The notes: generated from the letters alone by a model not told the origin. Shown: positions 1,821 through 16,299, numbered from the stretch's first letter. The stretch is 20,322 nt of DNA from a virus (IMGVR_UViG_3300010883_000677:1-20322), one strand, 5' to 3'. Made by a program: numbers and translations.

Positions 1821-1852
1821 AGTAAGTATCCCCAGAATCTAGGAATCTGTGC
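1821..1852 (-). promoter_or_regulatory. Promoter-like element, copy A
   Basis: GCACAG (1852-1847), 16 bp, then GATACT (1830-1825) inside CTGGGGATACTTACTTGAG. It shares 23 identical bp with copy C. It begins right after the stop codon of the upstream gene and stands before the structured noncoding stretch and the HNH gene, 277 nt from that gene's ATG. See copies B, C and D for the shared pattern. Confidence 0.6.
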
Positions 1853-1853
1853 A

Positions 1854-2147
1854 CTATCTAGGAAGGGCCTTGAGGACAGTGGTGATGGCCTCAGGCCTGA
1901 AGGAGCGCCACTGTCCATGATGCTTAGGACCCCCGAAGGCAGTGATGCTAATGTTTCCATTCGGGTCAGTGACGACTTCATGGAACCTGAAGTGAGCACC
2001 ACGCTCACCACGAACCTTGAACTCTCTGCGCTTGATCAGCTTGTAGCGCTTCCCAGGTACGTCAAAGGTGTCCTCATAGAGCCAGCCAGCCTCTCTACGC
2101 TGGTCTCTTAGGCCCTGGCCCTTGATGGTGGATCGCTTGACTGTCAT
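1854..2147 (-). CDS. Small basic protein of unknown function
   Basis: A 97-residue protein with a basic N-terminus (many K and R in the first 40 residues), a mixed beta-like middle and a C-terminal GGPKHHGQWRSFRPE segment (about 73-87). That ending resembles small proteins common in actinophages, but I cannot assign a role. The ATG at 2147 overlaps the stop of the upstream gene by 4 nt (ATGA), and AGGGAG precedes it. Its TAG stop is immediately followed by promoter-like copy A, so it closes a transcription unit. Low predicted membrane content; a cytosolic role is likely. Confidence 0.72.
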   Translation of the reverse strand: MTVKRSTIKGQGLRDQRREAGWLYEDTFDVPGKRYKLIKRREFKVRGERGAHFRFHEVVTDPNGNISITAFGGPKHHGQWRSFRPEAITTVLKALPR

Positions 2148-2404
2148 TGGTCAGACTCCCTGTGATCCTCCAGAGCCAACTGGACCAGCTCCAGCTTCTG
2201 CTCAATGGTAGCTGGAAGAGGGATGCCAGCAGCTCTCTGGATCATGGTCTCGGTCTGGTCAGCCATGGTGATGGGATTCTGATCAAACAACTGAGCCAGA
2301 TCATCAATGGCCTCTTCCCAGGTCTCTGCGTAGCACAGGGCCTCAGCCACGATGCTGACGGCAGCAGTAGCCTGCTGGTCAAGCCTCTTGGATTCACTTG
2401 TCAT
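2144..2404 (-). CDS. Small acidic protein of unknown function
   Basis: An 86-residue, helix-rich acidic protein (EEAIDDLAQLFDQ, LELVQLALEDHRESD). I recognise no family. The start chosen is the ATG at 2404 because AAGGAGG sits 6 nt before it; an ATG 18 nt further upstream is in frame but overlaps that ribosome site. Its stop overlaps the next start by 4 nt, so the two are probably coupled. It sits downstream of the DUF932 gene. Confidence 0.68.
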   Translation of the reverse strand: MTSESKRLDQQATAAVSIVAEALCYAETWEEAIDDLAQLFDQNPITMADQTETMIQRAAGIPLPATIEQKLELVQLALEDHRESDQ

Positions 2405-2429
2405 ATCAAACCTCCTTGTCACTGCCTCA

Positions 2430-2457
2430 GGCCCTCACTCCAATAGGAGCAAGGGCC
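2430..2457 (-). other. Intergenic hairpin after the DUF932 gene
   Basis: GGCCCT/AGGGCC (6 bp) plus an inner CTCC/GGAG around a 4-nt loop, in the 78-nt gap between the DUF932 stop and the next start. There is no U-run on either side, so termination is uncertain; it could lower read-through or protect an mRNA end. Confidence 0.4.
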
Positions 2458-2482
2458 AGGAGGCTTGGTATGGGATGGAGGA

Positions 2483-3430
2483 TCAGACGCCAGCCAGCAC
2501 CCGGCCCTTCATGGCCTCAGCCATTGGCTGCTGCTCCTTCATGACCATCTCAACCTGGCGCTTGACCTGGGCCTTGCCCTCAGTGAAGTCATGACTCTCA
2601 GCTGACTGGACAGCATTGAAGGCAGCCCACGCAGTACCGGCAGCAGGACCATCAGACTCCTCAGACCAGTAGTAGCGCACGGCAGCCAGCTTGCGCTCGA
2701 AGGTGTTGATGGTCTTGGTGTGAGCATCCTCGCCAGGCTCAGGCATGATCTCAGATAGGATCTTCAGAAACTGAACGCCACTGATCTTGATTGACTTGAG
2801 CGTAGAGACACCCTCAATAAAGACAGCCATACGATCCATAACCTGAGCCAAGATCTGGCTACGGTACGCAAACATAGAATCGTGGTTCAAGGTGCGCCTA
2901 GCCGATATATGCGCCTTGGATAAAGGCAACTGGTTGGCACAGAAGAACCTGTGAGCCAGACCATGGCAGCCTGTCGCCCAGGTTGAGTTGAGGCTTCCTG
3001 TCCAGAGTAGGTGAGGCCTGATGGTGTCACCACCGCCAAGGTCAATCTCAGAGCCAATCTCCTGAGTGAGCATGACCTGCTCACCGTCGTCGATGACCTT
3101 TACCGCCGTAGTGCTCTCAGGGAAGAGGGCCTCAGCAGTCTCAAACAACTGGAGATAATTGGACTCAGGGAAGCTGGGGTGGACTACGTTGAGGACCTTG
3201 ATGGTGCCATCAGGCTGGATACGGTGGAGGATCTTCTGGATAGGGTCGCCCTTGTACTTGCCTTCTTTGATCGCAGGTGTCTCACCGCTCACCGTCAGAG
3301 GCTCTGAGTGCACCTTGAAGAGCGCTCCAGCCTCGATGGCTGCGTCAACTGCGTTAGTAGTGTCTACTGTCATATTTGATGCTCCTAGCATCATGTTGTC
3401 ATGGGCTCGGGTTCTTGCTGCCATTGTCAT
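2483..3430 (-). CDS. DUF932-family phage/plasmid protein
   Basis: A 315-residue protein whose layout fits the DUF932 / TIGR03299 group found in phages and plasmids: an N-terminal region ending in beta-rich SFPESNYLQLFETAEAL (about 85-101), a core with IRPHLLWTGSLNSTWATGC (137-155), then a helical part with NTFERKLAAVRYYWSEE (about 243-259) and a Gln/Lys-rich tail. The biochemical function of the family is not established; it often lies among replication and recombination genes. The ATG at 3430 has AGGAG at good spacing; an ATG two codons in is possible. A 69-nt gap separates it from the zinc-ribbon gene upstream. Confidence 0.75.
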   Translation of the reverse strand: MTMAARTRAHDNMMLGASNMTVDTTNAVDAAIEAGALFKVHSEPLTVSGETPAIKEGKYKGDPIQKILHRIQPDGTIKVLNVVHPSFPESNYLQLFETAEALFPESTTAVKVIDDGEQVMLTQEIGSEIDLGGGDTIRPHLLWTGSLNSTWATGCHGLAHRFFCANQLPLSKAHISARRTLNHDSMFAYRSQILAQVMDRMAVFIEGVSTLKSIKISGVQFLKILSEIMPEPGEDAHTKTINTFERKLAAVRYYWSEESDGPAAGTAWAAFNAVQSAESHDFTEGKAQVKRQVEMVMKEQQPMAEAMKGRVLAGV

Positions 3431-3499
3431 TGTGATCTCCTGGGTTGGTAGAACTTCTGAAGCTTCACCCTACCATGTCGGCAGGGCTTCTAGGCGAGT

Positions 3500-3661
3500 T
3501 CAGCTATATTCCTCCAGATATTTCTTGGAGGGCTTGGTGGAGCACTTGTGGCCCTTCGAGCATTGAACCTCTGCCTCGGGCAGTGTGTCCACCACTGCGT
3601 CAAGGCATCGGTTGCAATAGAAGCGCTCCAGGCCCGCTGGGACTGGTCCTGAGACTGTCAT
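3500..3661 (-). CDS. Tiny zinc-ribbon-like protein
   Basis: A 53-residue protein with CNRC at 16-19 and a second pair in CSKGHKC at about 38-44, the arrangement of a small zinc ribbon. The lysine-rich tail ends KPSKKYLEEYS. The start at 3661 has AAAGGAGGAGG in front and overlaps the previous stop by 4 nt (ATGA). It is the last of three tiny genes that follow the sigma factor in one coupled run. Zinc ribbons of this size often bind nucleic acid or a protein partner, but no target can be read from the sequence. Confidence 0.68.
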   Translation of the reverse strand: MTVSGPVPAGLERFYCNRCLDAVVDTLPEAEVQCSKGHKCSTKPSKKYLEEYS

Positions 3662-3798
3662 GCCTCCTCCTTTGCCCAAGACTGCTGCTGTAGCCTTTGA
3701 TACTTGGTGCCTGTGTGGAAGCCTCCACGCTTCCTGAGGATGGCCTGGCCAGCTCTGGAGATGCGCCTGGTGACCTTGGACTGCTCAGACATCGTCAT
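3658..3798 (-). CDS. Tiny basic protein of unknown function
   Basis: A 46-residue basic protein (VTRRISRAGQAILRKRGG) with a Gln-rich end. It starts at the ATG at 3798, inside the last codons of the gene before it, with GGGGAG upstream; the ATG at 3792 is an in-frame alternative. The stop overlaps the zinc-ribbon start by 4 nt. The basic helix suggests nucleic-acid contact, which is inference only. Confidence 0.55.
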   Translation of the reverse strand: MTMSEQSKVTRRISRAGQAILRKRGGFHTGTKYQRLQQQSWAKEEA

Positions 3799-3964
3799 GG
3801 GGATCATCTCCCCAGCCTGCCCTGAGGGCCTGGAATAGGTCCTTGGTTGGGTTCATGGGCTTGGGCTCAGGGTCCAAGGGGATCACACCAGGAGTGGAGA
3901 AGAGCCTTGCGGGCTTGTCCTCATCGGTGAGGTGGTCATATGGCTTGCGCTTGTTGTTGGTCAT
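3785..3964 (-). CDS. Small protein of unknown function following the sigma factor
   Basis: A 59-residue hydrophilic, proline-rich protein starting MTNNKRKPYDHLTDEDKPARLF and ending in an acidic tail. The start at 3964 overlaps the sigma factor stop by 4 nt (ATGA) and has AAGGAGGATCAGC before it, a strong ribosome site. Tight coupling to the sigma gene could mean a linked role, for example a regulator of that factor, but no motif proves this. Confidence 0.62.
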   Translation of the reverse strand: MTNNKRKPYDHLTDEDKPARLFSTPGVIPLDPEPKPMNPTKDLFQALRAGWGDDPHDDV

Positions 3965-4701
3965 TGCTGATCCTCCTTGAGGATGCTTCTGAGGGCCTTG
4001 AGAGCCCTGTTGCGTATTCGGTTCACTCCTGAGCGGTCAATCCCGAGGGCCTGACCAACCTCATAGTCATTCATGCTATCACCATAAGTGAGCCCATAGG
4101 CCATCTCCAGGACCATTCTGTCCCTGGGAGCAAGGCATTCAAGCAGCTCCTCCAAGTCAGGCTGGTCCTCTGTGATGTTCGGAGCAATCCAGTCTTGCCT
4201 GGAGAACTGGCTGACGTTGAAATCACCATCAGCAGGCTCATTGTCACTGTCCTCACCACTCTCCATGGCATCCAGGCTCCAAGTATCTGTCACCAGGTTG
4301 TGGATGGCATCGAAGGTTAGGTGATCCATATCAGAGACCTCTCTGGCCTCCAGGATTGTGGCAGTGCTGGACACTGCTGACCAGTATTGCTGGAGCCTGG
4401 TCTTCGGGACGGTGGCTCCTTGGTAGTAGTCACCAGCCCTGTTGAGGATGGTGCCTTTGATGAGCAGGAAGACAAAGGTCTCAAAGGGATGGCCTTTGGA
4501 AGGGTCAAACCTCTGGAGAGCTTCAAGCACAGCCAGCCGGGCATCCTGGAGGAAGTCCTCAGGGTCCAGATGGGTGGTAGTTACCTTCTTCACTGCTGTC
4601 TTGATAAATGGGTCCACTCTGTCCATGATAGCAGCCTGAGCGGCGCTGTCTCCAGCTTTGGCAGAGAGGATGATGGATGTTGGAAGGTTGTCTGGATTCA
4701 T
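3961..4701 (-). CDS. Sigma70-family RNA polymerase sigma factor
   Basis: A 246-residue protein with two sigma domains. The region 2 signature is DPEDFLQDARLAVLEALQRF (46-65), followed by DPSKGHPFETFVFLLIKGTI (66-85), the core-binding and -10 recognition part. An acidic linker (about 140-165) follows. Region 4 is LAPRDRMVLEMAYGL (about 190-204) and a helix-turn-helix near YEVGQALGIDRSGVNRIRNRALKALR (about 213-238) that would read the -35. Region 1.1 and most of region 3 are missing, as in alternative or phage sigma factors. It would redirect host RNA polymerase to phage promoters; the GCACAG/GATACY elements in this window are candidate targets (inference). The ATG at 4701 has CAGGAG upstream. 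It lies 53 nt after the endolysin stop. Confidence 0.83.
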   Translation of the reverse strand: MNPDNLPTSIILSAKAGDSAAQAAIMDRVDPFIKTAVKKVTTTHLDPEDFLQDARLAVLEALQRFDPSKGHPFETFVFLLIKGTILNRAGDYYQGATVPKTRLQQYWSAVSSTATILEAREVSDMDHLTFDAIHNLVTDTWSLDAMESGEDSDNEPADGDFNVSQFSRQDWIAPNITEDQPDLEELLECLAPRDRMVLEMAYGLTYGDSMNDYEVGQALGIDRSGVNRIRNRALKALRSILKEDQQ

Positions 4702-4754
4702 TCAGTGACTCCTGAGTTGTGAAATATGGCATTCAGTTCAAGTGTAGCACACTC

Positions 4755-5687
4755 TCAGACCACCACAGGCCTGCCCTCAAAGTCAGCTCCACCAAAGGCA
4801 AAGATGCCTCCATCAGAGGCTGCCAGCCAGTAGCCACCAGGCTCAACCTCAATGGAGATGACTGGCGCCACGAGGTCAAGATGGCCCAGGCCTCCCATGA
4901 AGACAGCGTCCCCAAAGGTGAAGACACCTCCATCAGAGGCCACTAGATAGTAGCCCTGGCCTGATGGAGTGGCCTCAGCGTCCACAATGGGCTCGTTGAG
5001 GACAGTGCCGTCCATGTCTCCCTTGTGGGCAGCAGTGCCAAAGACCTGGACCTCACCAAGGTAATCACAGACTGCATAGCCACCAGCCTGGTCAAAGATG
5101 GCCACAACTGGACCCATGGAATCAACCACAGGCTCTCCTGGTGTGGGGTCCACTGCTCCAGGTTCCTCATCCTCAGCATTCAGCTCAGAGAGCTGGCCAT
5201 AGAGAAAGTCACCAGGGCAGGCTGTCTGCTTCCAGTCCCTGTGCCCCACTGTCAGGTCCTGGGCATTGGTGTTGTTGGCAATCCAGAGGACAGACTCATC
5301 CAGGTTGTCAACGGACTCCTGGAGGACAGGAGGGTCACCAAGGCCAGTGGCAGTGAAGATGGAATGAGAGGTGTCATTGCCAACAGTGGTGCCTTGTGAG
5401 GCTGTCCTGACATTGAGGCCTCTGCCTTCCCAGAGGTAATGACCCCAAGGATCGTTGCCAAAGCTGTAGGCGTAATCGCTCCAGCCTCTGCCGTTCATAT
5501 GGAAGCCCTGGACCGCTCTCATCCTGCGCTCCATCCAGTTGACCTGGGCATCCTTGTTGTTGTCCACAGAGGCCCACTTGGTGCCTCCTCCATTCCAGTG
5601 GAGTGTTGTCGGTCCTGTCAGGTCCTGGACTGTCCTGAACTTGGCAGGTAGGGCATCCCATTGGTCTCTGATCCACAATTCAATCAT
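4755..5687 (-). CDS. Endolysin: N-acetylmuramoyl-L-alanine amidase with DGGxFxFG repeats
   Basis: A 310-residue lysis enzyme that would cut the amide bond between muramic acid and the stem peptide. Residues 1-170 form an amidase_2/PGRP-like domain: zinc ligands are likely H30 (LHWN), H149 (GHRDW) and C157 (ACPGD), and Y72 in the WSDYAYSF segment fits the catalytic tyrosine. After a Pro/Glu-rich linker (about 171-190), the C-terminus carries beta-propeller-like repeats, clearest as GYYLVASDGGVFTFGDAVF and GYWLAASDGGIFAFGGADF, with a degenerate one before them. Such repeats are common in secreted actinobacterial proteins and probably bind the cell wall. No signal peptide. The ATG at 5687 has GAGGAG before it. 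It is far from the holin-like genes near 17.5-18.0 kb. Confidence 0.87.
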   Translation of the reverse strand: MIELWIRDQWDALPAKFRTVQDLTGPTTLHWNGGGTKWASVDNNKDAQVNWMERRMRAVQGFHMNGRGWSDYAYSFGNDPWGHYLWEGRGLNVRTASQGTTVGNDTSHSIFTATGLGDPPVLQESVDNLDESVLWIANNTNAQDLTVGHRDWKQTACPGDFLYGQLSELNAEDEEPGAVDPTPGEPVVDSMGPVVAIFDQAGGYAVCDYLGEVQVFGTAAHKGDMDGTVLNEPIVDAEATPSGQGYYLVASDGGVFTFGDAVFMGGLGHLDLVAPVISIEVEPGGYWLAASDGGIFAFGGADFEGRPVVV

Positions 5688-5696
5688 ATTATCTCC

Positions 5697-6029
5697 TCAG
5701 CTCCATCTTTCTAGAGCGCTGCTCAGGCTAAACCGCAGCCCTGCAACGTCCCTTGCCATTCGGTCTATTCCCTCAACGCTTCGCTTCCTCGCTGACCTCA
5801 ACGCTCCCCGCCGGGGATCTGTGGCAGTATCGCCAGTCGGATCAGAGTGTCCGCCCTTCGAGCGTATCCCAGCGTCCTCAGCGTCGCTTGAAGCCACAGG
5901 AGACAACCACTGTAGCTCCTCGGTCTCTCTCAGCAGCACAATCAGTGCATTGAGGTCTGTAGCTAAGCTAGCCAAATTGGAGTTCAGGTAGCCCTCTTCT
6001 GTCATTGGCGCCTTCGGTTTGTACATCAT
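5697..6029 (-). CDS. Small phage protein of unknown function
   Basis: A 110-residue protein: a helical N-terminus (TEEGYLNSNLASLATDLNALIVLL), then HSDPTGDTATDPRRGALRSA (about 61-80), a motif I associate with small conserved proteins in actinophages, then a helical end. Function unknown. The start at 6029 overlaps the stop of the GIY-YIG gene by 4 nt (ATGA) and has GGGAGAGG upstream. CpG content is high, like the gene before it and unlike the endolysin after it, so the pair may have arrived together. Confidence 0.7.
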   Translation of the reverse strand: MMYKPKAPMTEEGYLNSNLASLATDLNALIVLLRETEELQWLSPVASSDAEDAGIRSKGGHSDPTGDTATDPRRGALRSARKRSVEGIDRMARDVAGLRFSLSSALERWS

Positions 6030-7147
6030 GATTCCTCTCCCTCTGGGTGGCCCTTTTCTGCCACGTCTTTAGCTCTAGCCTTCACTAGGTCCCAAGCTGC
6101 CAGGTTCAGCAGTTCGCCGCTAGCTAGCATCCCCCTAAGACGCCACATCTCATTACGTCCAGTTATCGGATCTTCAAACAATTCGGTCGTGGGTCTGCCT
6201 GGGTAGTTGTGATTGTCTGCACGCTTCCCGCCAACCTTGAGAGCCGCCCTCTCAATATAGAGAGCCATAACTAGCGGCATCCTCCAGTGGATCACTAGCT
6301 CTGCGTCACCGTCCACCCAACGCAGCTCGGCGCCGATTCCGACCTTCCACCACAAGGCACCGTACTTGTCTCGATACATGACAAGGTACACGGTAGACGG
6401 CGCCCAAGGGTCCCGACCGCCGGGCCTAGAAAGCGTCTTCATAGTGATGGGGCCTCTAAGGTTGCACGTTCTGCAGCCGTAGCCATGGCTCAAGTCGTTT
6501 GGCCTTATGCTAGAGTCGTGGTCAGAGCCCTCACCATCAGAGCACCTGTAAGTGATAGGCGTGACAGAGTTCACATAGACCCCAGTCCAAGCCGAGCATT
6601 TGCCTACCCGGCCCTCTCTACCGGCCTCCTCAAGAGCTGCTTTCAGTCTGGCAGCGTCCCACTTCGGCGGAGCCATGCCAGTCATACGCAGCGCACCGTT
6701 GGCCGATCTCGATTTCATATCGCCGAAACGGCAATCGAACTCTACCCCATCCTTGTCTTTCCAAGTGCTCTTACGAGGATGCCCACGCCCTCGGAACACA
6801 ACCAGCTCCGGTGTATAGCTCCCAGCCCTAGCGGCCTTGACCTCAGCCTCAGCTGCATCAAACTCTTTGCCCTCAGTCAAATCTCGTTGGGCTAGAGGCA
6901 CAATCGAGCCTGTTTCAGCTAAACGTTTCGCCAACAGCTTGGCCCGCGCCTTCAAGTCGCCGACCGTGGTGCTTCCCCGTTTACCCGTCAAAGGCTCCCA
7001 CCAATCGACCTTATAGCGAGCGCCGGTATAGTCGCTTGTCAGTATCAGCCACACACCCACAGCATCGAACAATGCCTCGACCTCATCAGCCATATCGGCA
7101 TGAGAGCGCTTCTTTCTGCTGTAAGGCTTGGTATCTGCTACAGCCAC
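6026..7147 (-). CDS. Putative GIY-YIG-type (T5orf172/MUG113-like) homing endonuclease
   Basis: A 373-residue protein. A zinc-ribbon-like module near 202-228 (C202, C225, C228) resembles DNA-binding zinc modules of homing-type endonucleases. The C-terminal third looks like the T5orf172/MUG113 branch of GIY-YIG nucleases: TVYLVMYRD (252-260) and WWKVGIG (266-272) stand for the GIY and YIG halves, R276 follows, and E299 in ALYIERAALK fits the catalytic glutamate; a TELFE segment closes the domain. The start is GTG at 7147, because an in-frame TAG lies 21 nt upstream with no ATG between. My count of 41 CpG in 6121-6720 against 8 in 7621-8220 of the neighbouring polymerase gene marks it as compositionally foreign. 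Probably a mobile free-standing nuclease beside the polymerase gene. Confidence 0.62.
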   Translation of the reverse strand: MAVADTKPYSRKKRSHADMADEVEALFDAVGVWLILTSDYTGARYKVDWWEPLTGKRGSTTVGDLKARAKLLAKRLAETGSIVPLAQRDLTEGKEFDAAEAEVKAARAGSYTPELVVFRGRGHPRKSTWKDKDGVEFDCRFGDMKSRSANGALRMTGMAPPKWDAARLKAALEEAGREGRVGKCSAWTGVYVNSVTPITYRCSDGEGSDHDSSIRPNDLSHGYGCRTCNLRGPITMKTLSRPGGRDPWAPSTVYLVMYRDKYGALWWKVGIGAELRWVDGDAELVIHWRMPLVMALYIERAALKVGGKRADNHNYPGRPTTELFEDPITGRNEMWRLRGMLASGELLNLAAWDLVKARAKDVAEKGHPEGEES

Positions 7148-7266
7148 TGAGCCCCCCTGAGTGGCTCCCTAAACGATCCTGGACCCTCTGAGCCCTGGTC
7201 ATCCATCCCAATATTCTCTGTGGCCCCTGAAACATAAGCCCTGGTCACAGCGTTGCGAATTCTCAT
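7138..7266 (-). CDS. Small open frame between polymerase and endonuclease genes
   Basis: A 42-codon frame that starts at an ATG overlapping the polymerase stop by 4 nt (ATGA) and ends at a TAG a few codons inside the GTG-started endonuclease gene. The peptide begins MRIRNAVTRAYVSGATENIG and ends in REPLRGAQWL. No family is recognised. The ATGA coupling is the arrangement seen at most real junctions here. It could be a genuine small gene or the first part of a gene cut short when the endonuclease arrived. Confidence 0.42.
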   Translation of the reverse strand: MRIRNAVTRAYVSGATENIGMDDQGSEGPGSFREPLRGAQWL

Positions 7267-9068
7267 GTCATCGCTCCATATCCGTGACCCCAGCTTGGTC
7301 CGTAGACCTCGCCAGTTGCCTCAAAGAGGACTCCCATGGCCTCCATCGTCATGACCTCTCCGATGGCTTGAGCCACCTCTTTGATGTCAGCCTCTGGGGC
7401 TTCAAAGAGGAACTCATCATGGATGGGAAGAAGGATGAAGTCACTAAGGCCAGCTTCCTCCAGGTTGAGGAGGCTCTGGCAGAAGAGATCTCTGGCAGTG
7501 CTCTGGACTGTGTAATTGGTGGCTGCGTAGATCCTGGAGCGGTCCAAAGGGATGCGTCTTCCAGTGGCAGTGGTGACAGCAAGCCTGCCCATGCCAGCCT
7601 GGTCAATGAGCCTCTTGGAATATCTGGCGACCTTGGGATAAACCCTCTTCCAGCCTCTGATGGCAGCAGTGGCTTCAACCAGGGTGATGCCAGCCTGCTG
7701 AGCCAGAAGCTTGGCTCCACCACCAAAGCAGATGAGGAAGTTGGTCATCTTAGCTAGCTTTCTGGAGATGCCTACCCTCTGGGCAGTCAGGTCATGGAGG
7801 TCAATTCCCTCCTTGATGGCCTGAAGGATGGCAGGCTCCTTGGCCAAGGCACCCAAGACTCTCAGCTCCACTTGAGAGTAATCAGAGGAGCCCATGAGGC
7901 AGCCTGGAGAGGCAATGAAGAGCCGTCTGACTCTCCAGTCATTGGCAGGTATCTGGTGGAGAGGAGGGTCTGAGACTGCCATCCTGGCTGTCCTTGCCCT
8001 GAGAGAGTTGATGGAGGGATGAGAGCGCCCATCAGCACCGAGAGTGTCCATGACCTTGTTGACGTAGGTCTTGCGGAACCTGCCCATTGACTTGCCAACA
8101 CTGACAGCTTTGGCCAGCTCAGAGGCTGGACCCAGGTCAAGGTTCTCAATGCCCTCCAGGACATCCTTGTCCACGCAGAGGTTGCCTTTGTCGGTCTTCT
8201 CTATCAGCTCCACTCCCAGGGTCTGGAAGGCAGAGGCAACTTGGGCAGTAGAGTTGACGTTGTCTACTCCCCAGGTGGCAGCAGTCTGCCTGGCCTTGTC
8301 ACCATGCTCATCCAGCCAGGCTCCAAGCTCTGGAGCGTAAGCAGCGTCAACGGCAATGCCCTTGCGCTGCATCTTGGAACAGAGCCTAGCCACCTCATGC
8401 TCAAAGCCCGAGAGGTCAGTGAGACCCTGAGCCTTGATCAGAGGAGCCATGACCTCAAACAGCCAGGCAGTGTGGAGGACATCGACAGCACCGTATTGGT
8501 GGAAGAGAGGAAGCTGGATGTCAACATTGCAGTATCCCTCAGGAGACTTGATCTTCCAACCCTTGGCCCTGAAGTGGTCCATCAACTCATCGTGGTATTG
8601 CCAAGCACCAGGGTCTCCAAGGTAATGGGCAGCCAGAGCCTCCAGCTTGTGGCCTGGGCCTCCATCAGCCTTGGCCCTTGGGTCCAGGAGATGTGCCAAG
8701 AGATAGGTGTCCACTGTCCTGGACCAGGCCTCCTCAAGGTCAAGGTATTGGAAGCGATCCAAGGCCAATAGGTCATAGCTAGCATTGTGAGCCAGCAGGA
8801 CAGGCCTGGAGGCCAAGATGGAGCTGATGAGGACCTCCATGCCATTATCACCCTCCTCCACCAGGAAGACCCACGCCTGCGCCATGGAGGCAATCTGGAT
8901 GGTCCTGAGGCTGTAACTACTGCTGAAGATATCCAGGCCAGTGGCCTCAACGTCAATCGCCAGAGGCCCAGTCTCTAGAGCTACCTTGTTGAATATAGCG
9001 TCGTAATCTGTAGTGGTCCTTACCACGTTCACAGTGCGAACATCACCAGCTATCTTCACAGATGGCAT
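7263..9068 (-). CDS. Family A DNA polymerase with 3'-5' proofreading domain
   Basis: A 601-residue replicative-type phage polymerase, lacking the 5'-3' exonuclease of bacterial Pol I. Exonuclease motifs: DVEATG with D39 and E41, LAHNASYDLLAL with N95 and D99, and YGAVD with Y192 and D196. Polymerase motifs: A, SSDYSQVELR with catalytic D396; B (O helix), R436 and K440 with F444 at the position that sets dideoxy discrimination and F448-G449 after it; C, IHDEF with D551. All catalytic residues are present. Start at the ATG at 9068 with GGGGTGAG upstream, overlapping the DUF4406 gene by 13 nt. CpG is strongly depleted over most of the gene. It works with the primase-helicase encoded upstream. 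Confidence 0.93.
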   Translation of the reverse strand: MPSVKIAGDVRTVNVVRTTTDYDAIFNKVALETGPLAIDVEATGLDIFSSSYSLRTIQIASMAQAWVFLVEEGDNGMEVLISSILASRPVLLAHNASYDLLALDRFQYLDLEEAWSRTVDTYLLAHLLDPRAKADGGPGHKLEALAAHYLGDPGAWQYHDELMDHFRAKGWKIKSPEGYCNVDIQLPLFHQYGAVDVLHTAWLFEVMAPLIKAQGLTDLSGFEHEVARLCSKMQRKGIAVDAAYAPELGAWLDEHGDKARQTAATWGVDNVNSTAQVASAFQTLGVELIEKTDKGNLCVDKDVLEGIENLDLGPASELAKAVSVGKSMGRFRKTYVNKVMDTLGADGRSHPSINSLRARTARMAVSDPPLHQIPANDWRVRRLFIASPGCLMGSSDYSQVELRVLGALAKEPAILQAIKEGIDLHDLTAQRVGISRKLAKMTNFLICFGGGAKLLAQQAGITLVEATAAIRGWKRVYPKVARYSKRLIDQAGMGRLAVTTATGRRIPLDRSRIYAATNYTVQSTARDLFCQSLLNLEEAGLSDFILLPIHDEFLFEAPEADIKEVAQAIGEVMTMEAMGVLFEATGEVYGPSWGHGYGAMT

Positions 9069-9424
9069 GACTCACCCCAAGGGAATACCGGCAGACCCAA
9101 GCAGACAGCCAGATCGAGCTCGACAGTAGCGCCTAGAGACTCCTCGTGGCCAGGCAGCAACACCAGACCCTCAGCGCTGTTACAGATCATTGACAGATCT
9201 TCTCTCATAGCCTTGCGTAGGTCGAAACCCTGTTCAGCTAGCTCCTCCTGCGATCCAAACGGGCAACGCTTCCAACGGAAGCCTCCCTTCTCATCACGCT
9301 TGGCAGGGTTCAGCACCTGAAAGCCTTGTTTGATAAGACCTACTTCAGCCTCAAAGAACGCTGGGAAATTGAAGTAGGGGATTCCTCTCATGGGACCAGC
9401 TATGTAGACCTTCATGCCACTCAT
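9056..9424 (-). CDS. DUF4406 protein (nucleoside deoxyribosyltransferase-like fold)
   Basis: A 122-residue protein with the typical start MKVYIAGPMRGIPYFNFPAF (4-23), an NPAKRDE turn, a DLSMICNSAEGLVLLPG strand-turn (about 75-91) and a GATVELDLAVCLGLPVF end (about 97-113). This matches DUF4406, which is related in fold to nucleoside 2-deoxyribosyltransferases and is common in phage nucleotide-metabolism regions; the exact substrate is not known. The start at 9424 overlaps the previous stop by 4 nt; a second ATG three codons in is the alternative. It overlaps the polymerase start, so the two are likely translated together. Confidence 0.78.
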   Translation of the reverse strand: MSGMKVYIAGPMRGIPYFNFPAFFEAEVGLIKQGFQVLNPAKRDEKGGFRWKRCPFGSQEELAEQGFDLRKAMREDLSMICNSAEGLVLLPGHEESLGATVELDLAVCLGLPVFPWGESCHL

Positions 9425-9873
9425 CGTCCTTCCACTTCTCGGGCAAATGCCTCTTCAGCACTGTCTTCCATGCCTGGGAGCTGCCGACCCCCCTCCTGCC
9501 TGCGCTCCTCCCAAGATGAGCGCTGATGCAAGCCGTCTTTAACAGCCTGGCGATATCCCACTCTCCAGTGATAACGCTCCAGCACCTCCGAGTTTGTTCG
9601 GTCCTTTGACGCTCTCCAAGCCCTGTCCATGGCTTTGTTGATCTGTTGGACAGCGAGCATCAACACAGCCAGCCCACCCCAGACAGCTCCGATCTCAGGA
9701 GCGAACAAAGCGGAAGCAGCAAACACGCCACCAACCACAGCAGTAGCTGCTGCAGTGTAGAGGTAACCTCTCATCGACATTGACGGACCGAACAGGCTGT
9801 AATCGTAAGGACCGCTCTCGGCCTCAGGATGGTCCTCCATCGACTCCATGTTAGGTACTGGGTAGCTCATCAT
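9421..9873 (-). CDS. Two-helix membrane protein of unknown function
   Basis: A 150-residue protein with an acidic N-terminus and two hydrophobic segments, about residues 37-58 (YLYTAAATAVVGGVFAASAL region) and 62-80 (IGAVWGGLAVLMLAV region), then a long charged C-terminal domain rich in Arg, Glu and Gln. The start at 9873 overlaps the primase-helicase stop by 4 nt (ATGA), with GGAGGCGCACG upstream. Promoter-like copy B stands 47 nt before it, inside the end of the primase gene, so it may have its own transcript as well as read-through. Function unknown; membrane anchoring is inferred from the segments. Confidence 0.7.
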   Translation of the reverse strand: MMSYPVPNMESMEDHPEAESGPYDYSLFGPSMSMRGYLYTAAATAVVGGVFAASALFAPEIGAVWGGLAVLMLAVQQINKAMDRAWRASKDRTNSEVLERYHWRVGYRQAVKDGLHQRSSWEERRQEGGRQLPGMEDSAEEAFAREVEGR

Positions 9874-12365
9874 CGTGCGCCTCCAAATATGCTGTCTGAT
9901 TGCGTTGTGGTCTCTGAATAGGTATCCCCAGCAGCCTGGGATTCTGTGCAAGTCTTGGTGTGAGTGAGGTGTATACCATCTGTCTTCTTGGTCCTCAAGG
10001 CACCTCGCTCCTCCATCTTGGCTGAGAAGGTTCTCCTGCCCCATCTCTCTTTGTCAGGAATCTCCTCCTCATCAGCCCAGGTCTCATAGGTCTTGAAGGC
10101 ATCAGTGAGAGTGACAGCCTCATCCCTGGTGCCTCTCACCAGAGGGCCATCAGGGTAGAAACCGGCCAGGTCATCAGAGGTGGCCTTGTAATCAGCAGTG
10201 GCAGCCACCACCACAGGAGGCTCCTTGAGCCCTGATGCGTACCACTCAGCAGCTCCCTGGACAGCCCAGGTGAGGATTCCCTGAGCCTCATCCTTGGTCA
10301 TGGTGGCAACCAGAGTGTGGTCTCTCTCCTCAGGCTTGAAGTATCGGGAGAATGGAATGAGCTTGACCCTGCGCCAGAGGCCTTCATCCTGACCTCTAAA
10401 GGAGGGCTTATGATTGGTGGCCAGGAGGATGAGGAAGGAGGGTCTGAACTCGAAGAACTCAGCCCTCATGAACCTGGCAGCAATGAGGTCCTGGCCTGTC
10501 ACCCTCTTCAAGGTGGCCTCAGCCATGGTGGTGCCAAGCTCACCCTCTGAGGCAAAGACCAGCCTGGAGCCTCTGAGGGCAGCCAGGTCATTTGGGATGC
10601 TGCCTCCTCCAGCCTTCTTCTCAAAGGTGGTGAATGGAGTTGTGCTGGATATGGAGGCAAAGACCCTGGAGAGAGTATCAGTGAAGACTGATTTGCCGTT
10701 GGCACCAAGACCCCAGAGGACAGCAAAGCATTGCTCAGAGGTCTCTCCAGTAATGCCATAGCCAATGAGCCTCTGGATGTAGGGAGGCAGCTTGGCCTGT
10801 CCGGGGAATATCTCAGAGAGGAACCGGTGCCAGCGCGGGCAGGAGGCCTCATCGTCATACGCAATGTCAAGCCTATGGGTGATTAGGTGGTCTCTGTCAT
10901 GAGGACCCAGCTCACCAGTCCTGAGGTTGATGGTGCCATTGGCCACAGTGATGAGATGGCCATGGCTATCAAAGGCCTGAGGATCAACATTGATCATGGC
11001 GGCCAGCTCTGTGAGGGCCTGGTCCAGCGTCCTGGTGGACTTCAGCCTCTTCACCATCTTCCTCTTGGTGGCGCGGAGTCTGGTAGCCATGTCAAAGGCG
11101 TCCTGGTCAGCCCTGTCCCTCTCCAGCTCCAGAATCTTGGCCTCGTACTCAGCCTCAGCATCCTCAGAGAGCTGGTCAGCAGCCTCATGAGCCGAGTTGC
11201 GTATGGTGTCCAGCGTGTCTCTCTCCCAGGCTCCAGCGTGGTAGAGGAAGAAGCCCAGGCCAGGACTGTGGAGGACATTGCCTTCAAGGAACTCCTGGAG
11301 GAAGATAGCCAGACCATGGTCAGTGGCATATTGCTGGAGGTCCTCATTGGCCTCCTTGTCCTCCTCGTTGGTGGCTTCCCTGGTAACAGCCTTGGCACCA
11401 GTGACAGCCTCCTGGAACTCCTGGACAAAGGTGTCCAGAGAGCCCTCATACCATTCACTGAGGTCATTGAACTGCTCAGGGATGGCTAGAGCAAAGACCT
11501 GGTAACCAGCAGGGATGAGGACATCAGCCAGGTCAGCATTGAACTGCCTGCCTGCGTCGTCATTATCGCCAGCAAGAACAAAGGGCCTGTCATCCATCTC
11601 AGCAAAGAGGACGACGGACTCAGCCACTGACTTGGCCAGAGAAGCTCCTCTGATAGCTATGGCGTCATAACCAGCAGCATGGGCAGTGAGGCCATCACCA
11701 GGACCCTCAGTGACCACAATGTTATCAAGGCCTGTGTAGGCCCCCATGAAGGCATGCTTGCTCCAAGAGCCCTCAGCAGGGTTGGATGGACCACTCCACT
11801 TGACCCTTGTGTCCTCCAAGGCTCTGGACTGGAAGCCTCTGGGGATGCCTCTAAAGTCCTTGAAAGGCACCACAACCCTAGGCACAACCTTGTAGGCCTG
11901 GCCAAGGAGGCCATAGGAGATGGAGCCATCATCAACACCAATGCCCAGGTCATTAGCCTGGTCCACACTGAGGCCAAACCTCTGCCAGAGGTAGTCATAA
12001 GCCTCACCACCAAGACGGGCATGAGAGGAGGCTTGTATGAGCTGCTTGGTCTGGTGAAGGTAAGCAGCCATGAGGGTCTGCTCCTCAGCACCAGCAGGCA
12101 TGGCACCAGAAGTGACAGCCAAAGGAGTGTCAGGCATATTGCGTGGCACCTCCATCAGGTCAGAGAAGGAGAGGCCCTTGGTGGCCAGCAGTGCGTCTGT
12201 CTTACATCCAGCTCGGCACTTGACAATGACCTTCAGCCCTGTCCCAAGAGCAACCCTGAGAGAAGCCTGGGAGTCATTGTGACCAGGGCAGTGGATGATC
12301 CAGCCAGTCCCCTCAAAGGTTGGGTTGGAGTCTCCAAGGGCAGTGAAGAGTTCAGTGAGCTTCAT
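9870..12365 (-). CDS. Primase-helicase: zinc, Toprim and superfamily 3 helicase domains
   Basis: An 831-residue fusion that would both prime and unwind phage DNA. N-terminus: C26-PG-H29 and C50-RAG-C54 form a CHC2-like zinc motif. The Toprim domain has E220 in TEGPGD and the DND pair at 267-269 in GDNDDAG. A helical, charged linker runs from about 320 to 450, then a D5_N-like region. The SF3 (D5/P4) helicase has Walker A GLGANGKS (552-559), a Walker B-like strand RLVFASE (601-607), sensor N651 in LLATNHKP and an arginine finger in GLWRRVKLIPF (662-672). The final part (about 760-831) resembles a winged-helix end. Start at the ATG at 12365, overlapping the methyltransferase stop. CpG-poor throughout. 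Confidence 0.92.
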   Translation of the reverse strand: MKLTELFTALGDSNPTFEGTGWIIHCPGHNDSQASLRVALGTGLKVIVKCRAGCKTDALLATKGLSFSDLMEVPRNMPDTPLAVTSGAMPAGAEEQTLMAAYLHQTKQLIQASSHARLGGEAYDYLWQRFGLSVDQANDLGIGVDDGSISYGLLGQAYKVVPRVVVPFKDFRGIPRGFQSRALEDTRVKWSGPSNPAEGSWSKHAFMGAYTGLDNIVVTEGPGDGLTAHAAGYDAIAIRGASLAKSVAESVVLFAEMDDRPFVLAGDNDDAGRQFNADLADVLIPAGYQVFALAIPEQFNDLSEWYEGSLDTFVQEFQEAVTGAKAVTREATNEEDKEANEDLQQYATDHGLAIFLQEFLEGNVLHSPGLGFFLYHAGAWERDTLDTIRNSAHEAADQLSEDAEAEYEAKILELERDRADQDAFDMATRLRATKRKMVKRLKSTRTLDQALTELAAMINVDPQAFDSHGHLITVANGTINLRTGELGPHDRDHLITHRLDIAYDDEASCPRWHRFLSEIFPGQAKLPPYIQRLIGYGITGETSEQCFAVLWGLGANGKSVFTDTLSRVFASISSTTPFTTFEKKAGGGSIPNDLAALRGSRLVFASEGELGTTMAEATLKRVTGQDLIAARFMRAEFFEFRPSFLILLATNHKPSFRGQDEGLWRRVKLIPFSRYFKPEERDHTLVATMTKDEAQGILTWAVQGAAEWYASGLKEPPVVVAATADYKATSDDLAGFYPDGPLVRGTRDEAVTLTDAFKTYETWADEEEIPDKERWGRRTFSAKMEERGALRTKKTDGIHLTHTKTCTESQAAGDTYSETTTQSDSIFGGAR
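9921..9949 (-). promoter_or_regulatory. Promoter-like element, copy B, inside the primase gene end
   Basis: GCACAG (9949-9944), 17 bp, GATACC (9926-9921), within CTGCTGGGGATACCTA. A CCCAG/CTGGG inverted repeat lies in the spacer. It overlaps the last codons of the primase-helicase and stands 47 nt before the membrane-protein ATG at 9873. Confidence 0.55.
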
Positions 12366-13093
12366 ATCAGTTCCATCTTGTCTGCCAATACTTCTGCCTC
12401 TTCCAACCTGTCGGCAGCTATTTCTGCGTACTGCGCCACCAGCTCTATGCCGACAGCTTTGCGACCTGACAACACGGCTGAGACCAGCGTTGACCCAGCT
12501 CCAGCGAAAGGGTCCAGGACTGTCTCACCAACTAGGGAGGAGGATTCAACGAGCTGAGTTAGAAGTTGAACAGGCTTCTCAGTGGGGTGTCTGCGTGGTC
12601 CAGTCTGTTGAGGTCTTGGGACTCTAAGCACTGAACTTTGTCGAAGTCTGGCCACTAGGCCTCCTCTACCCTTGGATCTTTCCGCTTTGGAGTACCAGAC
12701 ATTACCAAACTGGATAGGTTCCCAGCTAGGAGCCCATGGAGACGCTAGATGACCCATGCCAAGCTTCATCTTATCCCATACTAGAGGGTTGGCTGCTGCC
12801 ACTATTCTGGAATCAATAGCCCCCAAATCAAATGGCCCAAATACGTACACGTGCCTGCCTTGGCACTGGATTCTAAGCTCCATCACTGCGCTGATAACTG
12901 CCTGAGCTATGTCTTGGTCAGCGTCTCCGGCAATGGCGTCAAAGGAGTCCTCTCTATAGTTGCTCCTATACTTAACACCATAGGGTGGGTCAGTGATGAG
13001 GAGATCAGAAGACCCTCTACCCAGTGATGGAAGGATCTCCATAGAGTCTCCACAGTAGAGAGTGGCTCTGGAGGTTTCATAAATAGGCTTCAT
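12362..13093 (-). CDS. DNA methyltransferase, N6-adenine or N4-cytosine type
   Basis: A 243-residue methylase of the N6_N4_Mtase family. Motif IV DPPY is at 35-38, HPTEKP at 169-174, and motif I DPFAGAG at 194-200 followed by GIEL at 215-218. The order IV then I is that of the beta class. It would transfer methyl from S-adenosylmethionine to an amino group of A or C, probably protecting phage DNA; no partner restriction enzyme is evident, though a PD-(D/E)XK nuclease gene overlaps its start. The ATG at 13093 is chosen because the family begins near here (KPIYETSRATLYCGDSMEIL); an upstream start would overlap the nuclease gene by about 95 nt. It overlaps that gene by 17 nt. Confidence 0.88.
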   Translation of the reverse strand: MKPIYETSRATLYCGDSMEILPSLGRGSSDLLITDPPYGVKYRSNYREDSFDAIAGDADQDIAQAVISAVMELRIQCQGRHVYVFGPFDLGAIDSRIVAAANPLVWDKMKLGMGHLASPWAPSWEPIQFGNVWYSKAERSKGRGGLVARLRQSSVLRVPRPQQTGPRRHPTEKPVQLLTQLVESSSLVGETVLDPFAGAGSTLVSAVLSGRKAVGIELVAQYAEIAADRLEEAEVLADKMELI

Positions 13094-13445
13094 TGGTCTT
13101 GTCCCTAGATAGGTCTTGGATGTAGCGCTCCAAGAGGGTCCAGGTATGGAGGTCCATGACCACCAGAGCATCCTCTGGGCGCTGGTCTCTGCGCTTGACG
13201 ATTACGGCAGAGAGAGGTTTGTGAGAGTTGTGTGCTTCATCTTTGGCCTGAGCAACCCAAGCACCAAGAGACATGCGGGTCTGGTCCTTGCAGTCCAGAG
13301 CCCATCGGTGAAAGCCACCAATGTCTCCATGGTCCTTGGGTCCCTCTAGGCCTCTCAAGCGATAGGCGTCAGTGAGGCCACGGCTCTGGAGATACTCCAC
13401 AACCTTGGACTCCCATTGCTGACCTATCACTTGAGGGCTGGTCAT
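13077..13445 (-). CDS. PD-(D/E)XK nuclease-like protein (possible Holliday junction resolvase)
   Basis: A 122-residue protein with the order of a small PD-(D/E)XK nuclease: E12 in the first helix (WESKVVEYL), D41 in DHGDIGG (38-44), DCK with D51 and K53 in RWALDCKDQ, and a following W63-Q66-A67 helix. The fold is shared by archaeal-type resolvases and restriction-like enzymes. In a phage replication region, resolving branched DNA is a reasonable guess, but a nicking or restriction role with the adjoining methyltransferase is also possible. The start at 13445 overlaps the membrane-protein stop by 4 nt. Confidence 0.68.
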   Translation of the reverse strand: MTSPQVIGQQWESKVVEYLQSRGLTDAYRLRGLEGPKDHGDIGGFHRWALDCKDQTRMSLGAWVAQAKDEAHNSHKPLSAVIVKRRDQRPEDALVVMDLHTWTLLERYIQDLSRDKTNEAYL

Positions 13446-13624
13446 GACTTCGGGTTGGGCTTTGTTACTGGTGCCAGGATGAACCTAGCCAGCAGGGCCA
13501 GGACCAATGCCTCCCAGAAGGAGACAGAGACACCAACCATACCTAGACCAATCATCATGGCCCAACCATAGAGAGGCAGGGCAATGAGGGAGGCCACGAT
13601 GATGGCAGCAGCAAGCTTGGTCAT
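13442..13624 (-). CDS. Small two-helix membrane protein
   Basis: A 60-residue, very hydrophobic protein with two membrane segments (about 5-22 and 24-50, the second possibly split) and a short basic C-terminus KPNPKS. The start at 13624 and the stop at 13442 both overlap neighbours by 4 nt, so it is embedded in the coupled run. Role unknown; an accessory lysis or superinfection function is possible but nothing in the sequence decides it. Confidence 0.65.
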   Translation of the reverse strand: MTKLAAAIIVASLIALPLYGWAMMIGLGMVGVSVSFWEALVLALLARFILAPVTKPNPKS

Positions 13625-14313
13625 GCTGGGACTCCAACCTCCTCCATCACTTTGAGCTGTGGCTTGGTATAAGTGACTTCGGTTCCATCCTTGGCAGTGA
13701 ATTCAACTTGCTCCAAGCTCAGAACGGCATGGCATGGGCCAGAGGCCTGCCCCAAGGCATCCTCTGCTGCGTTGAAATTCTCGACGGCAGTCCAAGAGCC
13801 GCTGAAATAGCGAAACTTGCCTAGGGCCGGAGCATCAGCCAACCTGAAATATGCCTGGAGGCTGGCTGACGGACCAACACCATTGCTGGCATCCTGCTTG
13901 ATTTCCTTCAAGGACTTGGTGGAACCAGACCAAGGCTTGTCAGTTAGCTTGCCATCCTCATAGAGGTACTCACCGTCGGTCTCCACGATCTTCTTGCCCT
14001 TGTTGGACCAGAGGACCATTGAAGTCCGCACAGCACCAGGTTCCAGGATGATGTCAATGGTGTCAGTGGTGGTGAAGACCTGGAGAACTTCCTCTGTGGA
14101 GGTCTCCCATTCACTGACACCAGTGTCATCAGCACCCATGATGTCAGCCACCATGGCTGCCACGTCAGGGTCACCAGTGGTGATGCGGAACTGTCCCAGA
14201 CCTACAGGTAGACCAGACTTGGTCTGGTAGCCAGAGCGGAACCGCCCAACTACGTCATTGGACTCACCTTCCTCTTGTGTCGCATTGTTGAATGAGATGG
14301 ATTTGATTGTCAT
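13621..14313 (-). CDS. Gp3-like family protein (phiC31 Gp3 / recombination directionality factor-like)
   Basis: A 230-residue protein whose pattern I recognise from actinophage proteins annotated as Gp3-like: DVVGRFRSGYQ (20-30), a FRITTGDPDVAAMVADIMG stretch (about 42-60), WETSTEEVLQVFTTTDTIDI (about 69-88), RTSMVLWSNKGKKI (96-109), and a C-terminal half with repeated beta strands. In phiC31 the relative controls integrase direction; in virulent phages the family occurs without integrase, so the role here may differ. No integrase is in this window. The ATG at 14313 has AAGGAGACACAAGAC upstream, and promoter-like copy C lies 44 nt before it. Confidence 0.55.
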   Translation of the reverse strand: MTIKSISFNNATQEEGESNDVVGRFRSGYQTKSGLPVGLGQFRITTGDPDVAAMVADIMGADDTGVSEWETSTEEVLQVFTTTDTIDIILEPGAVRTSMVLWSNKGKKIVETDGEYLYEDGKLTDKPWSGSTKSLKEIKQDASNGVGPSASLQAYFRLADAPALGKFRYFSGSWTAVENFNAAEDALGQASGPCHAVLSLEQVEFTAKDGTEVTYTKPQLKVMEEVGVPA

Positions 14314-14357
14314 GTCTTGTGTCTCCTTGTTGGTGAGGGTCTCTGGACTCTCAAGTA

Positions 14358-14386
14358 AGTATCCCCAGAAAGGCTCTGGAGTGTGC
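14358..14386 (-). promoter_or_regulatory. Promoter-like element, copy C
   Basis: GCACAC (14386-14381), 17 bp, GATACT (14363-14358). A CCAGA/TCTGG inverted repeat occupies the spacer. It lies in the 119-nt gap between the diphosphohydrolase-like gene and the Gp3-like gene, 44 nt before the latter's ATG. Confidence 0.62.
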
Positions 14387-14432
14387 GGTCAGGACCAGTC
14401 TCTTTGAGGCTGCGTCCAACTAGGTTGTCAGC

Positions 14433-14978
14433 TCACCCACTGTCTTCTCCCTTGTAGCGGTCATCAAAGACTGCCTTGTCTTCTTCCATGCTCCACTGGA
14501 GCAGAGCCATAGCGTGCCACGCCACAGCAGTCATATGGTGAGAGCCAGAAGGGCCATCTATGTCCTCACCGCTCAGCCACGCCAGAGCATGACGCTGGAG
14601 AGCAGCATACGACTTCGACCACTCGAAGCCCTTGCGCCAGTTGTTGGACTGGTACTTGCCCACTGTGCCATTGCCGCCATTCTTCCCATAGTGCTCAGCC
14701 AGAGCCTGGAGAGCTTCAGGAGGAATGAGGTCATGGCGTTCCAGCTTGGTGCCTTTGACTCCACCAGTGGTGGAAGTGGAGGAGGTCTCTCCTGGTGAGG
14801 TCAGCTCCACTGGAGCGCTCTTGAGTTGCTCCAACTCATTGAGCCTGGAGGCCCTTCCCAGAGCAACGCTCTGGTCACTGAAGGCCTGGTCCTGAGCAGT
14901 GATGTCATCCTGGTTGGTGACCATCCAACGTTGATCGGACACCCTCACCACCATCCATGGGTGGGTGAGGTCAATCAT
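14433..14978 (-). CDS. dATP/dGTP diphosphohydrolase-like protein (DUF5664 type)
   Basis: A 181-residue protein. After a variable N-terminus it shows the family block: KGTKLERHDLIPPEAL (75-90), a Gly-rich turn, NNWRKGFEWSKSYAALQRH (112-130), GEDIDGPSGSHH (137-148) and an AVAWHAMALLQW helix (151-162). The His and Glu/Asp residues would hold metal. Relatives are named for splitting dATP or dGTP; in 2-aminoadenine phages a related activity trims the dGTP pool. The start is the ATG at 14978, overlapping the nuclease stop by 4 nt with GGAG upstream; a GTG nine nt earlier is less likely. Its role here is probably adjusting nucleotide pools. Confidence 0.66.
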   Translation of the reverse strand: MIDLTHPWMVVRVSDQRWMVTNQDDITAQDQAFSDQSVALGRASRLNELEQLKSAPVELTSPGETSSTSTTGGVKGTKLERHDLIPPEALQALAEHYGKNGGNGTVGKYQSNNWRKGFEWSKSYAALQRHALAWLSGEDIDGPSGSHHMTAVAWHAMALLQWSMEEDKAVFDDRYKGEDSG

Positions 14979-15757
14979 GCCAACCACTCCTCAGGATCAA
15001 TAGCATCACCAATGACAGTCTTGGCAATGGACTTGTCCCACTGCCAGACCTTGATGAGGGCAGTGAAGACCTCCATCAGCTTGTCACGATCAAAGAGGAC
15101 AGGGATGAATTGCCACCCGTCAGGGACAATGTGGAGAACAGCCGCACCGGCCAGCTCAGGCATGGGAGTCTTGTTGCCATCCTTGTCCATGAGCCAAGGA
15201 GCAGCTCCATAGGCATTGAGCTGGAGAGCCACCTCCGGGAAGACACCAGACCTGGTGGTCTTGTTGTCACCAATGATGACCTCATCTCCAATCTTGGCAA
15301 TCCAGTCAAAGCTGCCAGCGTAGGCAGGATCATCACTCCAGACAGTACCCTCCAAGTGGAGGAACTCTGGCTGGAAGGTATCCACAAAGGACTGGAAGTG
15401 AGTGGCGAATATCTCCATATCTGGATGGAGCTTGCCAGTCGGCACCCCTCCAGCCATGTCCTCAAAGATGACATGAGCATCAGTGCCTCTGGCGGCAGCA
15501 GCTCCGGTGTTCCGCATGGGCGCCCTCTTCAAGTAGTCAATGGCACCCTGCTTGTCTCCTGCCAGGGCCATGCCTATCCATGAGCCTGCATGATCCACCG
15601 CTGTCTCAGCCACCAGCTTGGCAGCCCAGAACTTGAGGAATGGCTTAGGCAGCATATCCAGGACAGAGGTGACTCCTGGGACTTTGTCTCCTGTCTCTGG
15701 GTGAACGTAGAGACGAGACCCTCCACGCTTGATGGTTGCGACTTTCGGTGTTGTCAT
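14975..15757 (-). CDS. RecB/Cas4-like PD-(D/E)XK exonuclease
   Basis: A 260-residue nuclease of the RecB-like group. Motifs: GTDAH with H95, GSFD with D151, IIGDNKT with D164 and K166, and QLNAY with Q179 and Y183. I see no cysteine cluster for the iron-sulphur site of true Cas4, so it is better called RecB-like. In phages such enzymes resect DNA ends for recombination or process replication products. The ATG at 15757 has AAAGGA upstream; the open frame continues further but has no supported start and crosses promoter-like copy D, which lies 26 nt before this ATG. First gene of the replication cluster. Confidence 0.82.
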   Translation of the reverse strand: MTTPKVATIKRGGSRLYVHPETGDKVPGVTSVLDMLPKPFLKFWAAKLVAETAVDHAGSWIGMALAGDKQGAIDYLKRAPMRNTGAAAARGTDAHVIFEDMAGGVPTGKLHPDMEIFATHFQSFVDTFQPEFLHLEGTVWSDDPAYAGSFDWIAKIGDEVIIGDNKTTRSGVFPEVALQLNAYGAAPWLMDKDGNKTPMPELAGAAVLHIVPDGWQFIPVLFDRDKLMEVFTALIKVWQWDKSIAKTVIGDAIDPEEWLA

Positions 15758-15776
15758 GAGTGTTCCTTTGTTGCGG

Positions 15777-15833
15777 TCAATTAGGTATCCCCAGAAGGGG
15801 TTGAGACTGTGCGCCAGCGTTGAGTTTATCCAT
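15777..15833 (-). CDS. Possible leaderless 18-codon peptide
   Basis: An ATG at 15833 stands exactly 7 nt after a good -10 (TATACA, 15846-15841), the spacing seen at the other mini-genes. The frame (MDKLNAGAQSQPLLGIPN) ends just before the RecB-like ribosome site and runs through copy D. The -35 is weak. It may be a regulatory peptide or a chance frame. Confidence 0.25.
   Translation of the reverse strand: MDKLNAGAQSQPLLGIPN
15784..15812 (-). promoter_or_regulatory. Promoter-like element, copy D
   Basis: GCACAG (15812-15807), 17 bp, GATACC (15789-15784). A CCCC-TTCT-GGGG hairpin sits in the spacer. It is 26 nt before the RecB-like ATG, which leaves room for a short leader with the AAAGGA ribosome site. 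Confidence 0.62.
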
Positions 15834-15890
15834 CTAAAGATGTATAGGCCTAGTTGCCAGATTAGGGCATGTTCCTGCCTTCCCACCAAA

Positions 15891-15922: not shown

Positions 15923-15967
15923 TTCCTAGAGCCCTAGCGGGCGCCCCTTAAAGCTTGCCCGTGGCAC

Positions 15968-16222: not shown

Positions 16223-16229
16223 GAATAGA

Positions 16230-16258: not shown

Positions 16259-16269
16259 CCTCGACACAA

Positions 16270-16287: not shown

Positions 16288-16299
16288 CCACCAAACAAA

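Follow-up and report, generated by a model that had tools for sequence, protein, structure and literature searches.

A virus fragment of 20,322 nucleotides (IMGVR_UViG_3300010883_000677:1-20322; hereafter the window, meaning this whole stretch) encodes a sigma factor and carries several copies of a two-block, promoter-like element, which raises the question of whether the one reads the other. We conclude that the phage very probably carries a sigma factor of its own that reads a private promoter at the starts of its gene groups.

Searching the window for GCACAS-N16-17-GATACY returned exactly four matches, all on the minus (coding) strand and ahead of gene groups; in 100 dinucleotide shuffles the pattern turned up 0.02 times on average and never more than once, and the figures apply to this one 20,322-base virus fragment. 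The copies and the features around them are as follows.

1825..1853, minus strand: element copy A, with -35 TGCACA (1853-1848) and -10 GATACT (1830-1825)
9921..9950, minus strand: element copy B, with -35 TGCACA and -10 GATACC, within the primase gene at its 3' end
14358..14387, minus strand: element copy C, with -35 CGCACA and -10 GATACT, upstream of the Gp3-like RDF gene
15784..15813, minus strand: element copy D, with -35 CGCACA and -10 GATACC, upstream of the PD-(D/E)XK/Cas4-like exonuclease gene
17180..17204, minus strand: a degenerate fifth relative, GCACAGTCTCAGCCCATTCTGGG, which matches copy D over 25 nt at 92% identity
1570..1690, minus strand: tRNA-like stretch that lies between copy A and the HNH gene (fold z -1.8)
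9421..9873, minus strand: small gene with hydrophobic stretches, the first after copy B (called from open reading frame, start, and spacing)
9870..12365, minus strand: primase/helicase gene, whose 3' end holds copy B (domain match)
13621..14313, minus strand: RDF gene (Gp3-like), the first after copy C (PF18897, 4.9e-14)
14975..15757, minus strand: exonuclease gene, the first after copy D (phrog_298, 2.7e-49)

The sequence-only reading had reported the same four copies facing one way, and the search bears this out, except that copy A begins at 1825 rather than 1821 (1825-1852 in the register used there). Copies A and C indeed have 23 identical bp in common (TTCTGGGGATACTTACTTGAGAG), all four contain the longer core GCACAS-N11-12-CTGGGGATACY, and three lie, as had been claimed, 26 to 47 nt before an ATG (B at 47 nt, C at 44 nt, and D at 26 nt). 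Copy A, correctly described as preceding a tRNA-like stretch, sits directly 3' of the stop of a DUF7246 gene and 5' of that stretch and of HNH and terminase-small-subunit-like genes.

The product of the small gene after copy B, which matched no family with known function, is a probable membrane protein. The stretch at 1570..1690, where neither ARAGORN nor Rfam found an RNA gene (the sole Rfam match in the window, mir-598, lies elsewhere and far below the gathering score), is probably a degenerate tRNA; a very long hairpin occupies the position of the would-be anticodon arm, and in KeAlii and Moss real tRNAs are annotated close to the HNH genes of the right end. A further, conserved tRNA-like stretch lies between the primase and PolI genes of L014, L019, L021, L022, and L023. 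It has paired GGCCGG/GGCGGC ends and a T-arm-like GGGAGGTTCGACTCCTCC, and it contains GTCCCCATGAACTTCGCCTAATGA, which resembles a very small reading frame within an RNA.

Shifted one base upstream, the -35 half reads [TC]GCACA, 17 to 18 bp from GATACY and ending in ACA as TTGACA does, and we consider this a better reading than GCACAS. The earlier statement that this half is unlike TTGACA holds in its original register only, as [TC]GCACA matches TTGACA at three to four of six positions, and GATACY likewise matches TATAAT at three to four of six. The layout is that of a promoter class: two blocks at promoter spacing, with all four copies in coding orientation before gene groups. The site at 17180-17204 lies at the start of the early region, as does the first element of the Azeevirinae; it retains the -35 and spacer of copy D at 92% but has lost the GATAC -10, with CCGGGC in its place. 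Downstream of it come a ribosome site and a short hydrophobic open reading frame (ATG near 17140). Allowing up to three mismatches revealed no further convincing copy in the window, the extra sites being at chance level only. Nine IMG/VR contigs with the exact window element have one strict copy each and were set aside as probable chance matches.

The candidate reader of this element is the sigma factor that the sequence-only reading had placed at 3961-4701, an assignment upheld by profile matches to both conserved regions.

3961..4701, minus strand: sigma factor of 246 aa, with Pfam matches PF04542 Sigma70_r2 (1.2e-11) and PF04545 Sigma70_r4 (1.5e-8)

It also matches PHROG sigma factors, and both region 2 and a region 4 with its recognition helix were found, as expected of the sigma-70 family. 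The earlier description of a factor with only regions 2 and 4 was half right: both are present, but because a phmmer alignment to SigA structures spans residues 34-239, the stretch between the regions included, the protein is not strictly of that kind. Since its sequence matches SigA structures, we regard the fold as settled. With region 4 aligned through SigA vtreriRqieakalrklr, the window recognition helix is DRSGVNRIR, and Ser218 aligns with the position that we take to be E585 in sigma70 numbering.

Relatives were informative as to whether sigma and element belong together. A megablast search with the window among known phages returned no DNA-level relative, and single-sequence scans of IMG/VR with the window sigma and with PolI found none either. 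At the protein level, the window resembles Arthrobacter Azeevirinae (cluster AZ) and Curtobacterium phages (primase, 44 to 46% identity; PolI, 41 to 43%), with which it has a common gene order of exonuclease, nucleotide gene, RDF, RusA-like resolvase, primase, PolI, and sigma. The identities and the lack of a megablast match place the window phage outside the Azeevirinae; it is, as judged by these comparisons, a syntenic lineage more distant than they are. The annotations of the relatives mostly name the sigma homologue a "DNA binding protein," and the genome paper on cluster AZ is silent on promoters and sigma factors (PMC8758107).

Because the exact window motif is absent from the Azeevirinae, it first seemed that the element was not conserved, a view overturned by reading the regions upstream of orthologous genes. 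Upstream of both the exonuclease and the RDF orthologues lies a bipartite element with a common sequence within each phage and a different one between phages. In the Azeevirinae it takes the form TGAGCA-N11-12-C[TC]GG followed by a phage-specific hexamer (GCAACC, as in Phives; CCGACT, as in Crewmate; CCCTCT, CTCTCT, CGCACT, or CCCCCT; Pixelle has GCACCC with the -35 TGAGTA), the distance from TGAGCA to the hexamer being N15-16 and the spacing as in the window. Each Azeevirinae genome read carries about seven copies, each on the coding strand; these lie before the dNMP kinase, exonuclease, RDF, and primase genes, in the primase 3' end, after the integrase gene, and at the right-end operon. The copy in the primase 3' end is present in every Azeevirinae phage read and has window copy B as its counterpart; copies D and C occupy the exonuclease and RDF places, and copy A, before the HNH gene, is comparable to the right-end element. 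The Azeevirinae and Curtobacterium phages are thus like the window in synteny, in the position of sigma after PolI, and in bipartite elements at the same places, and unlike it in combining TGAGCA with other -10s and in their sigma (25 to 30% identity) and PolI sequences.

A prior-free motif search on 80 RDF-bearing IMG/VR loci recovered bipartite coding-strand elements in many of them, adding the -35s TGAACA, TGGGCA, TGAGCC, and CGAACA. Over 44 records, 246 copies lay on the coding strand and 0 on the opposite strand, a count to be read with the facts that the per-phage patterns were fitted on coding-strand copies, that nearly all genes lie on one strand, and that some patterns were too tight, so that L014, L044, and L099 are undercounted. 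Altogether, about 40 related phages have a bipartite, coding-strand-only element at the window's positions.

These variants bear on the idea that the element is a weak promoter of the host primary sigma, conserved for other reasons, with the phage sigma acting elsewhere. The form [TC]GCACA-N17-18-GATACY does match the consensus at 6 to 8 of 12 positions, but a consensus scan misses the window elements, and the -10s of relatives (e.g., CCGACT, CCCTCT, CTCTCT, and GCAACC) are unlike TATAAT and vary with the phage sigma. Moreover, TATAGT-like -10s sit elsewhere in the window, in cassettes at 15880-16690, so that host-type promoters are seemingly used separately. We therefore think it very unlikely that the host factor reads the element, and highly probable that the element serves as a promoter for host core RNA polymerase equipped with the phage sigma of 3961-4701. 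The cassettes themselves are three in tandem on the minus strand with a near-identical terminator (AGGAACCCTCCGGCTTCGGTCGGGGGGTTTCT); two have in common a 94-nt upstream block with the TATAGT-like -10 a few bases before the ATG, a promoter that appears leaderless and of host type.

If the element is read by a protein of the phage, the gene for that protein should be recognizable by its covariation with element type. We compared 34 gene families in the 17 Azeevirinae that allowed a comparison of all genes, with types assigned from the element sequence alone. Sigma was the only family to separate the types perfectly (AUC, 1.000), with a minimum identity of 76.0% within types and a maximum of 63.6% between types. 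Values for other families were far lower (PolI, 0.69; RDF, 0.62; exonuclease, 0.58; RNA-binding gene, 0.57; HTH gene, 0.48). The separation persists between close relatives: Phives and Janeemi have PolI proteins that are 98% identical, sigmas that are 58% identical, and different element types, and the pairs Adumb2043/Powerpuff and IttyBittyPiggy/TforTroy likewise differ in type at 98% PolI identity, with sigmas 58 to 64% identical.

Primase also separated the types (AUC, 0.988), and the copies are located among replication genes, as would be expected if the primase/helicase or some other replication protein used the element as a site of replication or recombination. However, the primase signal is weak over residues 1-300 and grows stronger toward the element-bearing 3' end, and it is therefore best explained by linkage; in addition, the copies are unclustered, in one orientation, and before functionally mixed operons. 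We find a replication site scarcely credible, and we retain the reading of the element as a promoter of the phage sigma. The covariation was obtained in relatives whose sequences are not independent, and the window contributes one point to it. Because the window sigma is only 25 to 30% identical to the other sigmas, its own pairing amounts to one genome plus extrapolation.

The two halves of the element follow different parts of the protein. Within the Azeevirinae, the first 125 residues of sigma follow the variable -10 (AUC, 1.0), and region 4 tracks type poorly (0.68 to 0.77), the -35 being constant there. Across 34 diverse sigmas, we computed partial correlations of sequence with -10 distance and with -35 distance. 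The correlation with -10 distance peaked in region 2 and in a single stretch between the regions (top columns, window Leu80 and Gly83), and that with -35 distance was highest in the region 4.2 helix (top single column, window Ser218). At the Ser218 position, TGGGCA goes with Ser (4/4), TGAGCA with Pro or Gln (25/26), TGAACA with Leu or Ile (2/2), and TGAGTA with Ala (1/1); for TGGGCA versus TGAGCA, the Fisher P value is 1e-4, with relatedness not removed. In a tree built without region 4, the TGGGCA/Ser phages fall on separate branches (L050 versus L058, L068, and L079), and L062, inside the latter group, is back to TGAGCA with Pro. The pairing of the -10 with region 2 and of the -35 with region 4.2 amounts to the double dissociation that a sigma factor and its promoters should show, and the comparison shows the two to behave as a matched pair.

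The same results weigh on the alternative that the sequence-only reading had named, in which the element is an asymmetric repressor-binding stoperator that, as in mycobacteriophage L5, silences operons in lysogens. Many one-directional, phage-specific copies close to operon starts would fit it, and the RDF gene implies that the phage is temperate. Stoperators specific to immunity groups have a similar look, and those of cluster A mycobacteriophages, like the start-associated sequences of cluster K, are many one-directional intergenic repeats specific to phage type. Yet cluster A stoperators pair with a repressor, and here the covariation is with sigma. Among the 34 families in 17 Azeevirinae, no gene other than sigma (and primase, by linkage) tracks element type, the HTH and RNA-binding genes included. 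The separate mapping of the halves to sigma regions 2 and 4.2, the bipartite spacing of 15 to 18 bp, which fits a promoter, and the presence in Azeevirinae of separate palindromic, operator-like repeats upstream of sigma also speak against it. Because no other DNA-binding gene tracks element type in these Azeevirinae, we judge a stoperator most improbable and continue with a sigma-dependent promoter. The operator-like repeats (e.g., CTACTTGCGTA...TACGCAAGTAG) lie upstream of sigma in L014 (33800-34045), L019 (32640-32870), and L023 (33420-33620), and a repressor bound there could silence sigma and so control lysogeny.

That a phage sigma factor can have promoters of its own is established. The Streptomyces phage phiC31 has phage-specific early promoters, described in older literature, and resembles the window in its gene order (dNMP kinase gp52, gp1, RDF-type gp3, gp9a, PolI gp11, and sigma-like gp12). 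It differs in element sequence and layout and in the length of gp12 (396 aa), which matches Pfam region 2 (4.9e-6) and the PHROG RNA polymerase sigma factor (5.9e-190), but which a profile built from the sigmas compared here does not find. A de novo motif search upstream of phiC31 genes found no element because the layout there is different; reading the intergenic regions revealed GGTTGCCGACNNCCTT, with 12 matches, all on the plus strand and at comparable places. In the phiC31 record, L123, gp12 (11959-13149) adjoins PolI, and the 12 GGTTGCCGACNNCCTT sites stand before most early operons; gp12 and GGTTGCCGACNNCCTT are a candidate activator/promoter pair for phiC31. Eight copies of a palindrome, CCACCGACTCACGTGAGTCGGTG, resembling the CTCACGTGAG inverted repeats of phiC31, occur in L067 (2872-18328).

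The nearest described parallel lies in phages 7-11 and phiEco32, whose sigmas have diverged and read different promoters located at similar positions in the genome (PMC8948821). The 7-11 promoter is bipartite, GTAAtg-(16)-aCTA, and its sigma is 15% identical to the phiEco32 homologue (PMC8948821). As proposed for the window, a phage sigma there brings host core RNA polymerase to phage-specific promoters. Those phages and their hosts are, however, unrelated to the ones studied here and represent two lineages rather than many, and phiEco32 differs further in having a single-element promoter and a sigma without region 4 homology. A literature search whose reach left out most subscription journals found no such system described in actinophages. 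What we consider new beyond the known kind is the specificity class of the window sigma and the apparent switching, across the family, of sigma together with about seven promoters; the window system itself is, by prediction, a phage sigma of a new specificity class.

We propose that region 4.2 of the sigma would read the -35 half [TC]GCACA and region 2 the -10 half CTGGGGATACY, with host core polymerase and the phage sigma starting transcription a few bases past GATACY. The sequence-only idea that the factor at 3961-4701 recognizes the element is thereby supported, through covariation and through conserved positions in about 40 related phages. Its idea of a regulon is kept with a revised membership: in place of replication genes, a membrane protein, and a noncoding RNA, the sigma would switch on the exonuclease, RDF, post-primase, and right-end operons, presumably at one stage of infection.

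The larger finding, as read from sequence, is that sigma and promoters have diversified in concert, and discretely, throughout the family. It is conceivable, although we hold it only as a tentative suggestion and rather doubt it, that sigma and the roughly seven promoters it would read fall into discrete "specificity types," which switch as a unit even at 98% PolI identity and act as a transcriptional lock against coinfecting or resident relatives, and that by the same logic gp12 activates the early promoters of phiC31. The region-by-region covariation of sigma and promoter, spanning about 40 phages and at least 15 distinct -35/-10 pairs, provides natural data for the code by which sigma recognizes DNA, as well as candidate orthogonal sigma/promoter pairs for use in actinobacteria. 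For a large group of phages it offers a model of temporal control, together with an evolutionary puzzle: how a regulator and some seven scattered promoters change together.
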